Translations under genes and position numbers: made by a program
Assembly (NCBI GenBank): GCA_029975295.1
Contig: JARKPK010000184.1
Span: 1-64,000, forward strand
Reading direction: 5' to 3'
DNA length: 64,000 nucleotides
Source: Thermoguttaceae bacterium
Lineage (GTDB): Bacteria > Planctomycetota > Planctomycetia > Pirellulales > Thermoguttaceae
Notes under the pieces: model-generated
The model's database searches: none
Told to the model about the DNA's origin: nothing
What the model saw: only the letters and a program-made list of their open reading frames with translations
Part shown: piece by piece, positions 21,929-55,034 of the stretch
Numbering within the stretch: position 1 is the stretch's first letter
How the letters are laid out: each line of letters starts with the position of its first letter

Positions 21929-23680
21929 TTATCGCTGCCCGCGAACCAGCAACGGGCGGTGCAGGTCGCCCGGGGCCGACGAGGCAGAGGCCACCGCGCC
22001 GCCCAACGGCCCCGCGGGCGCGGCTGGGGCCGCAGCGGCCGAGCGCGCGTCGGCAAGCGACACGGGCGTCGCCGTCAGCGGCGCGTTCCCGCCCGAGGCC
22101 GCCAGGGCGTTGCCGGCCCGCAACGGTTGTTCGAGCTGCGGCCGACTCTCGGCGTAGAGTTGTTGAAAGAAGGCGGGCGACACGCGATCGAGCACGATCA
22201 CTTCACTTTTCGCCTGGGGGTCGCTCCTCGGCCGAACCACGCAGATCACCTCTGCTCCGTCGCGCAACCGCTTGCGCAACTCTTCAAGGGCCGCCTGCTC
22301 ATGGGGCGTCAACTCGCCCGTCGGCGCGGCAACAGCGTTCGACGGCACGGCCACCGATCCGGTTGGCGCCGACGCAGCCGATGATGACCCGGCAAAAACC
22401 AGCGGAAGCCGCGAAGGCGGCGAAGCGTCGGCCGCTGCCGGCGCCGAATTGCTCGGGCCGAATCGGCCGGCCGGTCCGGCGGCCTCGGCCGGCGCAGCGG
22501 TCGATGCGCCCGGAGTTGCCGGCGCGGCGGCAAGGGCATCGGCCGAGCCGCGTTGCTGATAGACAAAGGAAAGCCGATTGCGGTCGAGTATTTGATGAAC
22601 GGCGGGCAAGCCCGAGTAAAGCCCCTCGCGCAGTTGCGGATCTCGGGCGTTGCACACTCCGATCAACAGGCCATCGTCGGTGAACAGTCCCCCGCCGCTG
22701 CGCCCCTCGACCGATTCGCCCGCGATCGAAACGTTGGGCCAGTTCAAATAGCGATCGACGGCTGTAATCCGGCTTCGCAACAAGGTGGCGTCGGCGCCGT
22801 GGTTGCATCCGCAACTGATCACCGGATCGCCCGGCCCGACACGGTAGCCTTGCGGCGCGATTCGGGCGGCGGCCACCGGGCCATCGACTTCAATGCTCAG
22901 CACGGCCACATCGTTGTTCAGGTCGAAATCGATCAGGCGGCCGGGCGCCGTCTTGCCGCGATTCGGGCCAAATAGATCGACCTCGATCTGGCCCTTCCCT
23001 TGCGAGTCGCGGAAGATATGCGCGCAGGTGACCACCAACGCTTGCCCCTGCCGCGCATCGACGATCGTGCCCGTCCCTTTGGAAATGCCCGTCTGATCGA
23101 CGACCCGCAGCCGCACCGTGGCGGCCAGCAGGCGGTCGTCGCTCGGGTCGGCTGCTGATCCGCCGATCGGGCCGCCCGAATTCGCCGCCGACCGAGCCGG
23201 CGCACCAACGGCCGTCAAGCCGGCCGCCGGCCCTGCCGACCCGAAGGGATCGCGGGCTGTTGCCGGCGCGGCCCCAGAACCGCCCGAAACCGGCGCGTTG
23301 GTTGCCGGAGAATACGCGCCGGCCGGCGAAGAATAATCATTGACCGGCGCCGCTGCGCGCGGTGCAACCGCCGACGGCGGCGCGGCGCGCTGAAACATCT
23401 GGAGCAAGCGGTCGGCCGATTGCGCCCCAACGGCCCGGTCAACCTCGCGGCCGTCGGCCAGCATCACAAAGCAAGGAATCGATGTGACGCCGAACGAGCG
23501 GGCCACTTCCGGCCGTTGCTCCACATTGATTTTTTGGACCGGATAGCCTTGGGCCATCAGTTGTTGAACAACCGGGTCCATCGCTCGGCAGGGCGGGCAG
23601 CGGTCGCCATAGAAATCGAGAAGAACTGTTTGGCCGGCCGAACAGACGATCAGCCCCAAAGCCGCGGGCAGGGCAAGCAT
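21929..23680 (-). CDS. Secreted thioredoxin-domain / trypsin-like serine protease fusion
   Basis: The 583-residue product starts at ATG 23680, which has AGGAGGG 6-7 bases upstream; the longer open frame is basic and family-unlike. A short hydrophobic segment (about 2-15) is followed by a thioredoxin domain with redox motif CPPC at 28-31 and cis-proline at 69. An Ala/Pro/Ser-rich linker comes next (about 103-180). The trypsin-like domain has a complete triad: His221 in VTCAHIF, Asp257 in DLNNDVAVL and Ser328 in EGRSGGG. The tail is low complexity with a short folded block near 480-530. The signal-like segment lacks basic residues, so export is probable rather than sure. Both domains look intact. 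Confidence 0.82.
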   Translation of the reverse strand: MLALPAALGLIVCSAGQTVLLDFYGDRCPPCRAMDPVVQQLMAQGYPVQKINVEQRPEVARSFGVTSIPCFVMLADGREVDRAVGAQSADRLLQMFQRAAPPSAVAPRAAAPVNDYSSPAGAYSPATNAPVSGGSGAAPATARDPFGSAGPAAGLTAVGAPARSAANSGGPIGGSAADPSDDRLLAATVRLRVVDQTGISKGTGTIVDARQGQALVVTCAHIFRDSQGKGQIEVDLFGPNRGKTAPGRLIDFDLNNDVAVLSIEVDGPVAAARIAPQGYRVGPGDPVISCGCNHGADATLLRSRITAVDRYLNWPNVSIAGESVEGRSGGGLFTDDGLLIGVCNARDPQLREGLYSGLPAVHQILDRNRLSFVYQQRGSADALAAAPATPGASTAAPAEAAGPAGRFGPSNSAPAAADASPPSRLPLVFAGSSSAASAPTGSVAVPSNAVAAPTGELTPHEQAALEELRKRLRDGAEVICVVRPRSDPQAKSEVIVLDRVSPAFFQQLYAESRPQLEQPLRAGNALAASGGNAPLTATPVSLADARSAAAAPAAPAGPLGGAVASASSAPGDLHRPLLVRGQR

Positions 23681-51988: not shown

Positions 51989-52069
51989 GCGAAAGCTGAG
52001 GAGATTCGGCGCTGTCAACCGCCACTGTCCGCCCGAAAACCCACCGATCGCGGCCTTATTGGTTCCCGC

Positions 52070-52140
52070 GGCAAACAACCCCACCGCCTCCATCCATCGG
52101 TTCCCACCGCCCGCTTCCACCACTGGGGCAAACAACCCCA
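52070..52140. repeat. Direct repeat GGCAAACAACCCCA
   Basis: Two identical 14-bp copies lie at 52070-52083 and 52127-52140, 57 bases apart, each associated with a nearby GGTTCCC word. The second copy also forms a short stem (TGGGG...CCCCA). Function unknown. Confidence 0.5.
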
Positions 52141-52732
52141 TTTGGGCCCGCCGCACCAACGAGCCGGCTTATTTAGGGCCTTTAGGCAGATTGAGCAGGG
52201 ACGATGGAATAGATCAGCAGGGCGCAGCCCGACTGCTCGTTGCTCGGGCGGATCGCAAGCGCGCCGCGATGAATACTGGCCATTTGATGCCCAGAATGCC
52301 AACCCAACGGGGGCGAGCAACCACCCGGCCGTCTTCTGCCGAGAAGAGGCGAAGAGTCGATCCTCTGACAATCGCACCGTCGCTCTGCCGAACAATCGGG
52401 CATGCAAGGCAAGCGGTTTGGCTGAAAGAACCGGCGTTGCGTCGTTTTGCCGAAAATCTCTACAATCGTCGCTAAACAGAGATGCACTCTGTGGAGGAAA
52501 GCGGAAGCCGACGCAACGAAGCGGGCGAATGCGCGTTTCGCACGATCGAGCTGCCTTTCTTTTCCGAGGTTTGATTAGGTTCGCTCGATATCTCGGCCGT
52601 TTGCATTTGTTCTGCGCCTTCGAACCGAGCTATTGAGCGCGCAGGGGCCGGCGATTGCGCGACTCTTCATCGTTCAAGGCGACGGAGAGGCAGCCGATTC
52701 GTTTCGATGATCTCGCTGAGGATGTTCGTGCG

Positions 52733-54043
52733 GTGAACGTGCTTCTGGTCCGGCTCAGCGCCATCGGCGACGTGGTTCACACCGCGCCGCTGGCCTGCGC
52801 GCTGAAAGACCACTTGCCCGATGTCCAAATTACCTGGGTGGCCGAACGGCCCGGGGGCGAATTGCTCGTCGGGCATCGGGCCATCGACGAGCTGATCTTG
52901 CTGCCGCGGCGATTCCTTCGCTCGCCGGGCGAAATGCTTCGGCTTGTGCGCCGCTTGCGGCAGATCGGCCCGCAGGTGGCGATCGACGCCCAGGGATTGA
53001 CCAAAAGCGCACTGGTATGCCGGCTGAGCGGCGCGAAGCGGCGCATCGGTTTCGGCCGACCCTGGGGCCGCGAGATCAGCCGCTGGCTGAACAACCAGTG
53101 TGTGGACACGCATTCGGTGCATGCCGTGTTGCGGAACCTGGAACTGCTCCGGCCGTTGGGCATCGAGTCGCCCCAGGTCCGCTTCGACCTGCCGGAGCTG
53201 CCCGCCGAGACGGCCTTCGCCGAAGAACTGATCGCGCAGCTCGGGCTTTCGCCCCAAGTGATGAGCGACCTGCCGTGTGCCACTGCCGGCTTGTCCGGCA
53301 GTGCAAACTGTTTGGGTGCGACTGCGGGCTCGTCCAAAAGTGCGGACCACTTGGGTGCCACGGCCGGCTTGTCCGGCAGTGCGAGCCGGGCAGTGAGCAC
53401 TGCCACCGTCTCCTGCGGCAGTTCAGCCCGCAACGATCGGAATGCCGGAAACTCAATCGAATCAACCGGCGATGAGGCCCTTCACGCTTCGTCGAGCGAT
53501 TCGCGCGGCCGACCTTTCAGCCCGACCCGAACAAAGGGCGATTATGCCATGATCACCGCCGGGGCCGGCTGGGAATCGAAGCGTTGGCCGGCCGAACGCT
53601 TTGCCGCGGTGGCCCGCCACTTGGCCTTGCACCATGGCGTGCGCGTGCTGCTGATTTGGGGCAACGAGGCCGAGCGGGCGTTGGCCGAGCGTGTGGCTCG
53701 CTCGTCGGGCGTAGTCGAAGTGCAGCCCGCCCCAAGGCTCACTCTGCCGCAACTGGCGGCCGTGGCGCGCCGTGCGCAACTGTTTGTCGGAGGCGACACC
53801 GGCCCGCTGCACATCGCCGCGGCCGTCGATACCCCCTGCGTCGGGCTTTATGGCCCATGGCCTGCGGCCGGGCACGGCCCGTTCGGTCCGAAGCACATCG
53901 CCGTGCAAGTGGAATACCTCGAAGGCTCGACCCGCCAGCGCCGCCGAGCGTCGCGCCGCTACATCGAGTCGATCACGGTCGAGGCGGTTTGCGACGCCTG
54001 CGACCGCATCCTTCAACCCAACACTGTTAGCCGTAGCCGATAG
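52733..54043 (+). CDS. Glycosyltransferase family 9 (heptosyltransferase-like)
   Basis: The 436-residue protein has the GT-B fold of ADP-heptose transferases. The N-terminal domain has VLLVRLSAIGDVVHTAPL and AIDAQGLTKSALVCRLSGAKRRIGF in parts; the C-terminal domain has GAGWESKRWPAERFAAVA and the nucleotide-sugar motif FVGGDTGPLHIAAAVDTPCVGLYGP in parts. GTG 52733 is the start, with GAGG 11 bases upstream. Between the two domains, about 90 residues of Ser/Ala-rich sequence contain three 13-residue repeats encoded by palindromic 39-bp DNA units. Such enzymes build lipopolysaccharide inner core. A radical SAM gene follows after 12 bases. Confidence 0.9.
   Translation: MNVLLVRLSAIGDVVHTAPLACALKDHLPDVQITWVAERPGGELLVGHRAIDELILLPRRFLRSPGEMLRLVRRLRQIGPQVAIDAQGLTKSALVCRLSGAKRRIGFGRPWGREISRWLNNQCVDTHSVHAVLRNLELLRPLGIESPQVRFDLPELPAETAFAEELIAQLGLSPQVMSDLPCATAGLSGSANCLGATAGSSKSADHLGATAGLSGSASRAVSTATVSCGSSARNDRNAGNSIESTGDEALHASSSDSRGRPFSPTRTKGDYAMITAGAGWESKRWPAERFAAVARHLALHHGVRVLLIWGNEAERALAERVARSSGVVEVQPAPRLTLPQLAAVARRAQLFVGGDTGPLHIAAAVDTPCVGLYGPWPAAGHGPFGPKHIAVQVEYLEGSTRQRRRASRRYIESITVEAVCDACDRILQPNTVSRSR
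53277..53393 (+). repeat. Three tandem 39-bp palindromic repeat units inside the GT9 gene
   Basis: Units begin at 53277, 53316 and 53355, exactly 39 bases (13 codons) apart. Unit 1 forms a perfect hairpin: CACTGCCGG (53281-53289), 5-base loop, CCGGCAGTG (53295-53303). Unit 3 is nearly identical, unit 2 is decayed, and a further degenerate copy may lie at 53395-53430. Each unit encodes a variant of ATAGLSGSANCLG, so the reading frame is kept. Confidence 0.75.
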
Positions 54044-54055
54044 GAATCGCCGATC

Positions 54056-54991
54056 ATGTCCTCCACGCTCGACATCGCCGCCCGTTCGCAGCCGACCGCA
54101 ACCTCTTGGTGGGCGCGTTGCGCCGGCCGAGCGGTGTGCGGCGGGCTGGGCGCGGTCTATCAGATCGGTCTGCCCGCCTTTCCGCCGCTGGTCCGCATTG
54201 AAACCACCAACGCCTGCAACGCGCAGTGCATCATCTGCCCGCACCGCCGCTCGCAAAGGCCGGCCGCGCGGATGAGCGACGAACTCTACGCGCACATCAT
54301 CGACCAATGCGCCCGCGGCGGCTGCCGCGAAGTGCATCTGCACAATTTCGGCGAACCGCTGTTGGATCGCCGCTTGCCGGAGCGCGTGGCCCTGGCCAAA
54401 CAGCGCGGCATCGGCAAAGTGAAGATTTTCACCAACGGTTCGCTGCTTACCGAAGAGCGGTCGGCCGCGTTGATCGAGGCCGGGCTCGACGAGATCAAGA
54501 TCAGCTTCGACGGGGCCACGGCCGAGGAATTCGAGCGCATCCGCACGCCGCTGAAGTTCGACACCGTGGTCGAAAACGTCCGGCGGCTGGTCGAGCTGCG
54601 CAACCGGCGCGGCGCGGCGCTGCGCATCTTGGTGGCCTGTTGCAGCACCCAAGACAAGCAATCGACGATGAAGCTGTTGGAGGATTCGGTCGATGGGTTC
54701 TCCTTCGGGCGGATCCACAACTGGTCGGAGGACCAGTGCGGTCGGCCGCGCTCGCAGGTGCGCAAGCCCTGCTCGCGGTTGTGGCGCACGATGACCATCC
54801 TTAGCAACGGGGCGGTCGCGCTGTGCTGCCTCGACTACGACGGCCGATGCCTGCTCGGCCATGTCGATGAGCGAACGTCGCTGGCCGACCTTTGGCGGGG
54901 CGAGGCCTACGCCCGCGTCCGCCGTCTGCACCACCTGGGCCGCCAAAACGAAATCGACCTGTGCCGCGGCTGCTCGAAGGCCTTCGTGTGA
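54056..54991 (+). CDS. Radical SAM / SPASM-domain protein
   Basis: The 311-residue protein has the radical SAM motif CNAQCIICPH (about 60-70), the GEP-like motif NFGEPLLD, and later barrel strands (KIFTNGSLLTEE, EIKISFDGATAEEF). A C-terminal SPASM-like region follows, with Cys residues in KPCSRLW, ALCCLDYDGRC and LCRGCSK for an auxiliary cluster. SPASM enzymes modify peptides, sugars or other substrates. Membership in a GT9 operon suggests envelope glycan or lipid modification, but this is inference. TAGGAA lies about 9 bases before the ATG. Confidence 0.9.
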   Translation: MSSTLDIAARSQPTATSWWARCAGRAVCGGLGAVYQIGLPAFPPLVRIETTNACNAQCIICPHRRSQRPAARMSDELYAHIIDQCARGGCREVHLHNFGEPLLDRRLPERVALAKQRGIGKVKIFTNGSLLTEERSAALIEAGLDEIKISFDGATAEEFERIRTPLKFDTVVENVRRLVELRNRRGAALRILVACCSTQDKQSTMKLLEDSVDGFSFGRIHNWSEDQCGRPRSQVRKPCSRLWRTMTILSNGAVALCCLDYDGRCLLGHVDERTSLADLWRGEAYARVRRLHHLGRQNEIDLCRGCSKAFV

Positions 54992-55034
54992 GTTGGTTCA
55001 CAGCGATCTTGTGCCCGATAAAAAGGGGTCCGCC

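Follow-up and report, generated by a model that had tools for sequence, protein, structure and literature searches.

The four 39-bp units within a glycosyltransferase gene of a Thermoguttaceae bacterium very probably represent a planctomycete REP element, copies of which came into the gene and have been kept there as harmless. The insert that carries them most likely has no function for the enzyme beyond being tolerated. The window analyzed here is a stretch of 64,000 nucleotides in contig C74 of the source genome (G000), a 5.01-Mb draft in 190 contigs.

The GT9 gene and its insert

The host gene, the insert and the repeat units are located as follows.

52655-54043, + strand: GT9 gene, heptosyltransferase I-like, 462 aa as listed
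~53252-53539 (residues ~200-295), + strand: lineage-specific in-frame insert, from orthologue alignment and pLDDT
53275-53304, + strand: REP unit 1; foot GTGTGC, perfect hairpin CACTGCCGG-CTTGT-CCGGCAGTG at 53281-53303, then C
53314-53343, + strand: REP unit 2, decayed; 24/30 identity, 5/9 stem pairs, no stable hairpin
53353-53382, + strand: REP unit 3; 29/30 identity, 8/9 stem pairs
53392-53430, + strand: REP unit 4, a remnant in the 39-bp register; 16/30 identity, mononucleotide-shuffle p 0.003

The protein matches Pfam Glyco_transf_9 in two stretches (E = 5e-42) and scores 171 bits against the NCBIfam model heptsyl_trn_I, under the 185-bit cut-off. The nearest folds to its AlphaFold model are WaaC (2h1f) and the GT9 protein 3tov. 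Since model confidence is low at residues 1-24, the real start may lie further in than the listed 52655, near 52736. In the PDB alignment, residues 178 and 294 of the query pair with WaaC residues 162 and 177, which places the insert between the two GT9 domains. The model agrees, with pLDDT above 90 in both domains and 26-45 inside the insert, bearing out the location that the first-pass annotation had given for the array. The insert is predicted to be a disordered linker between two Rossmann-like domains.

The first-pass annotation had also proposed a comparison with orthologues lacking the insert. In all 23 comparable orthologues of the same family, ~95 residues are missing at this point and the flanks are adjacent in the alignment. 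Two genomes rich in the same REP family (G004 and G058) likewise have a GT9 gene without the insert, so the insertion is specific to the source lineage.

The units begin at 53275, 53314, 53353 and 53392 and keep an exact period of 39 bp (13 codons) through 53430. A fourth, decayed unit after three clear ones had been described, and the identities to the genome consensus 30-mer (29, 24, 29, and 16 of 30) agree with this. A perfect 9-bp hairpin had been ascribed to every intact unit; it is present in unit 1 only (9/9 stem pairs), while unit 3 has lost one pair, unit 2 no longer folds and the remnant retains 3/9. Single-strand DNA folding gives -11.5, -1.8, -8.6, and -5.3 kcal/mol for units 1 to 4. 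With up to three mismatches allowed, the hairpin pattern is matched twice in the window against a chance expectation of 0.09. The previously given extent of 53277-53430 describes the repeat array well, and the whole insert is longer. No convincing second genome copy of 53388-53548, the segment following unit 3, was found (best other match E = 0.03), and the end of the insert, beyond unit 4, does not derive from a recognizable repeat. An Rfam scan of 52000-55000 gave no match.

If the gene were a pseudogene or the array an assembly error, its in-frame property would be meaningless. The source genome is indeed a draft, and several inverted repeat dimers lie near contig ends. Nevertheless, the gene is open over 462 codons, neither domain is disrupted and the conserved residues are retained; the in-frame pattern is also found again in other, independent genes and genomes. 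We regard an artifact or pseudogene as extremely unlikely.

A dispersed REP element

The first-pass annotation had named the absence of further copies in the genome as grounds for rejecting its reading. The exact CACTGCCGG-N5-CCGGCAGTG hairpin occurs 31 times in G000, as against none for a reversed-pattern control, and a similarity search finds 57 places with a recognizable REP. Neither this refuting result nor the other one named, the same insert at protein level in distant orthologues, was obtained. The 54 aligned copies (at least 25/30 matches) define a sharply bounded 30-bp unit, with information falling to near zero beyond both edges. The consensus is GGGTGC-CACTGCCGG-CTTGY-CCGGCAGTG-C, its GTGC foot is unpaired, and position 5 is C in 53 of these 54 copies. 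At a looser cut-off of 20/30, chance matches appear (95 matches against 30 for the reversed consensus); matches below ~23/30 were excluded from the evidence.

The copies lie on both strands as singles, direct arrays, and inverted dimers (REPINs). In G000, 15 of these are inverted heterodimers of 93, 103, or 120 bp, in which the stem CACGGCGGG is joined to CACTGCCGG. Inverted dimers in G004 measure 59-79 bp. The window array is direct, unlike the inverted dimer that is typical of the dispersed copies, and tandem duplication must therefore be added to the explanation. A pyrimidine precedes 38 of the 42 non-REPIN copies in G000 (p 3e-8); the preference is weaker in relatives (76/115). The pattern is sparse outside the order, and REPs are absent from the plasmid records searched.

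The stems are maintained as DNA. The search pattern leaves three stem pairs free, and these pair in ~96% of 118 distinct copies. Across the order, 18 stem combinations have 83% of the free positions paired, compared to 46% after shuffling (maximum 69%; none of 5000 shuffles as good). This covariation indicates that the hairpin itself is conserved while its sequence changes.

These observations bear on whether the array is purely a protein-level tandem repeat, grown by slippage within the GT9 gene and unrelated to mobile DNA. A direct array of 13-codon units in one reading frame is what slippage would produce. However, the same 30-bp DNA is found in intergenic positions on both strands, in inverted dimers and beside a RAYT gene, and its stems covary as hairpins across the order. 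The genome-wide copies and their arrangement refute an origin by slippage only, which we give virtually no weight.

Several features of the dispersed copies may be recorded here. Contig C5 carries a 96-bp direct dimer (REP, 36 bp, REP) both in an intergenic region (22033-22128, - strand) and inside a GT4 gene (22891-22986, + strand); the two lie ~830 bp apart in inverse orientation with similar spacers, as if cassette-copied. REPs or REPINs are also found close to the ends of contigs C14, C17, C157, C174, and C179, which suggests that REPs break the assembly and that the genome-wide copy number is probably underestimated. G004 contains a second REP family, GGTGCCACTGGCTTTGCCAGTG, arranged as inverted dimers of 59 bp and as short tandem arrays (L300:615-790; also L231, L282, L293, and L306).

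The RAYT transposase

A REP-flanked transposase gene is present in the source genome.

C85:1480-2205: RAYT locus with flanking REPs; Y1_Tnp match at C85:1841-2086, - strand; inverted REPs at 1480 and 2205

The protein scores 86 bits against NCBIfam REP_Tyr_transpos (NF047646), above the cut-off of 80, and its sequence resembles that of 4er8 (E = 9e-5). Its AlphaFold model (mean pLDDT 89) has the same entry, E. coli TnpA-REP on a REP hairpin, as the best PDB match (E = 2e-8). The HUH motif (EHVH) and the Y..NP motif (Y[IL]HxNP, here YLHENP) are conserved among relatives. G000 has one close copy, and the second, on C178, is only 37% identical. The named relatives of the transposase come mostly from planctomycete genomes. 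RAYT loci in relatives are flanked by REPs that keep the GGGTGCCAC or GGTGC start while the stems have changed, for example to CACTGCTGG, CACTGGCAT or CACTGGTGG types.

RAYTs and REPs also occur together. Across 246 genomes of the order, the odds ratio for co-occurrence is 6-33 (p 6e-13 to 5e-6) depending on the threshold, with phylogeny ignored. A RAYT relative is present in 18 of the 20 genomes with at least 10 REP copies. No RAYT was detected in the other two REP-rich genomes, which may have lost it or be incomplete.

The insert could be derived from REPs and yet owe its place to homologous recombination with, or gene conversion by, intergenic copies in the vicinity instead of RAYT transposition. 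The C5 dimer, with one copy intergenic and the other inside the GT4 gene, shows that whole cassettes are copied between sites. On the other hand, new sites have no homology beyond the element, a pyrimidine stands before most non-REPIN copies, REPINs of G004 lie in many unrelated genes and REP abundance tracks RAYT presence. Recombination as the means of placement is thus unlikely, though it deserves some weight for individual sites.

In-frame copies in other genes

The GT9 gene is one of many hosts. Further copies in genes were found as follows.

G000, GT4 transferase: 2 units between two GT domains, in frame
G000, Glycos_transf_4 protein: 1 unit, in frame
G000, MurA: 4 units in an 82-residue insert relative to PDB MurA
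G000, lipoate ligase LplA: 3 units read on the opposite strand, in frame
G000, chromate transporter: 1 unit, in frame
G000, leucine-rich-repeat protein: 2 units near the N-terminus, in frame
G004, HisG: in-frame REP between HisG and HisG_C
G004, 2-oxoacid dehydrogenase E2: in-frame REP between the E3-binding and catalytic domains
G004, thioredoxin-trypsin protein: in-frame REP between domains
G004, aminotransferase and cytochrome c assembly protein: in-frame REP
Relatives, DXS: in-frame REP between Transket_pyr and Transketolase_C
Relatives, AddB-like helicase, BlaR1-type protein, DUF7133 protein, and MMPL protein: in-frame REP

As in the GT9 gene, the repeats of LplA and the GT4 transferase are inserts in alignments. 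The host enzymes are often essential, and the sites are often domain linkers. Ten weak candidate host genes have no Pfam match and were left out of the count.

Copies were called intragenic by a coding test based on competition among the six frames. In G000 this test calls only the two GT4 copies, and the other hosts of that genome rest on Pfam, PDB, and orthologue alignments. In an unselected set of 85 G004 copies, 17 are called intragenic, and 14 of these are read in the same codon register (p 5e-5 against one third). Three copies break the register. The L262 REPIN, and probably that of L240, apparently lies just upstream of a start codon; L285 may be a genuine exception or only seem to be one. 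Most in-gene copies of G004 are whole inverted REPINs of 78 bp, or 26 codons, reading GATAGLSSSAGRNTRENTAGQASSGT or similar. All eight in-register dimers in genes have this length, compared to 33 of 55 others, a marginal difference (p 0.04) for a split chosen after looking at the data. One such REPIN, in an RNase HII-like gene, is common to G058 (L204) and G004 (L247), so the insertion has been retained through their divergence.

This retention, the position at domain borders in several enzymes and the expansion to 2-4 units in GT9, GT4, MurA, and LplA could reflect selection for the copies, whether because a flexible linker is useful or because an RNA hairpin slows translation from one domain to the next. 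Against such a role, the hairpins have decayed in two units of the window array (2 and 4), the host genes differ between genomes and have no common function, and every GT9 orthologue compared works without the insert. We therefore consider selection of the in-gene copies highly improbable and favor tolerance of the insert.

In an acyltransferase-like protein of the source genome (C5, L039:5307-6620, - strand), a low-complexity stretch rich in Ser, Ala, and Gly, GASSAATADTSKAAATGASSEASAG, contains no recognizable REP. Linkers of this kind may be old, decayed insertions.

Codon register and proposed history

All six frames of the REP unit are free of stop codons. The one register that nearly all in-gene copies use yields small flexible residues on both strands, GATAGL[SP]GSA in one direction and TAGQAGSGT in reverse; the other registers give peptides rich in Cys, His, Arg, and Trp or in Pro and Val. 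The simplest reading of this surviving pattern is a sieve, in which insertion may occur in any register and a floppy stretch of Gly, Ala, Ser, and Thr survives at a linker.

By analogy with E. coli TnpA-REP, the RAYT would bind the single-stranded hairpin via the GTGC foot, then cut and re-join it at a preferred site; a pyrimidine precedes most copies. This activity would seed new copies, as is thought for the E. coli enzyme. One copy or a direct array would have landed in the GT9 linker, with later tandem duplication of the 39-bp unit. Because the hairpin is open in six frames, any landing would leave the gene open if its length is a multiple of three. The copies that persist in genes would be those in the flexible-residue register, on either strand, at domain linkers or surface loops. 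Inside a gene, upkeep of the hairpin would end, and the copies would decay, as units 2 and 4 have done, with the reading frame kept. The earlier suggestion that mobile REP-like palindromes had settled in a linker with the frame left intact is supported by the dispersed copies, the RAYT, the in-frame copies elsewhere and the predicted disorder; mobility itself we infer, as we do transposition and protein function in general.

Relation to known systems

The elements have three of the features by which REP/RAYT systems are recognized, namely a dispersed short palindrome (20-40 bp), a REP-flanked RAYT and close inverted dimers. With E. coli TnpA-REP and REPtrons (PMC8266576, PMC6006769, PMC3733652), they share many short palindromes, inverted dimers, a REP-flanked RAYT and the HUH fold. 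They differ from both described superfamilies in the foot. GTAG REPs have their own unpaired foot, GTAG (or a close variant such as GTGG), whereas that of the planctomycete REP is GTGC. CGTC REPs have an unpaired CGTC foot and no dedicated transposase, unlike the present GTGC elements with their RAYT; repeats of the CGTC type are reported to lack a dedicated transposase (PMC10969869, PMC3733652). The combination of EHVH and Y[IL]HxNP motifs matches no single subclass row in Table 1 of PMC6006769.

REPINs as described by Bertels and Rainey (2011, PMC3116915) are similar in that two inverted REPs and a spacer form one miniature element. The REPINs of G000 differ in joining different stems, CACGGCGGG and CACTGCCGG, and the 78-bp ones of G004 differ in lying within genes as 26 in-frame codons.

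Insertion of such elements in coding sequence has precedents. Frame-preserving REP insertions inside RAYT genes have been described (PMC6006769). Intragenic REPs of several species lie in frame in unrelated genes, often as dimers or clusters, and are argued to be neutral in linkers in the main text of Di Nocera et al. (2013, PMC3733652). The families treated there are GTAG or CGTC, with the largest sets in Opitutus terrae and Rickettsia conorii, as opposed to GTGC here; that main text contains no GTGC-tagged family. Rickettsia RPEs are palindromes in frame in unrelated metabolic genes (Ogata 2000, 2002, as summarized in PMC10969869 and PMC3733652). The likeness lies in the in-frame insertion in unrelated protein genes, which is seen here too. 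RPEs are longer (~150 bp) and appear to belong to other sequence families; CGTC-type repeats reportedly have no transposase of their own, and here there is a RAYT.

The phenomenon of in-frame REPs is thus already known; the GTGC foot, the planctomycete RAYT lineage and the clear evidence for a reading-frame sieve are new. GTGC-footed REPs are nowhere described in the open-access papers searched, a result that speaks only weakly for novelty. It is possible, though somewhat less likely than not, that GTGC REPs and their RAYTs represent a third tag type, alongside GTAG and CGTC, with its centre in one planctomycete order. Their sequence would be translatable on both strands in one register as a flexible linker, and their REPINs would work, in essential enzymes, as a natural system for inserting linkers in frame.

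These copies show how a parasitic bacterial repeat can make its way through coding genes: the element is open in six frames, has one small-residue register and is tolerated in linkers of enzymes such as MurA, HisG, and DXS. Every insertion marks a permissive protein site. With its intact hairpins and RAYT, the system lends itself to in vitro tests, and its foot, GTGC, provides a natural test of the guide-sequence cleavage model for RAYTs. In that model (PMC8266576), GTAG is cut at CT or CA and GTAC at GA or GT, from which cutting at GC or GA would be predicted for GTGC.

IS200/IS605 elements have a Y...Q motif and several near-identical tnpA copies, whereas the present enzyme has YLHENP and one close copy. 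The class 3 TnpA-Y1 proteins of Planctomycetes (PMC6006769) come from the same phylum, belong to the same enzyme superfamily and are associated with many hairpins, but have a Y....Q motif and a CnGA foot in place of Y..NP (YLHENP) and GTGC. In other planctomycete groups, the hairpins on either side of RAYT relatives (L121, L124, L126, and L131) differ in stem and loop, and some of them start with a GTGCCAC-like foot.
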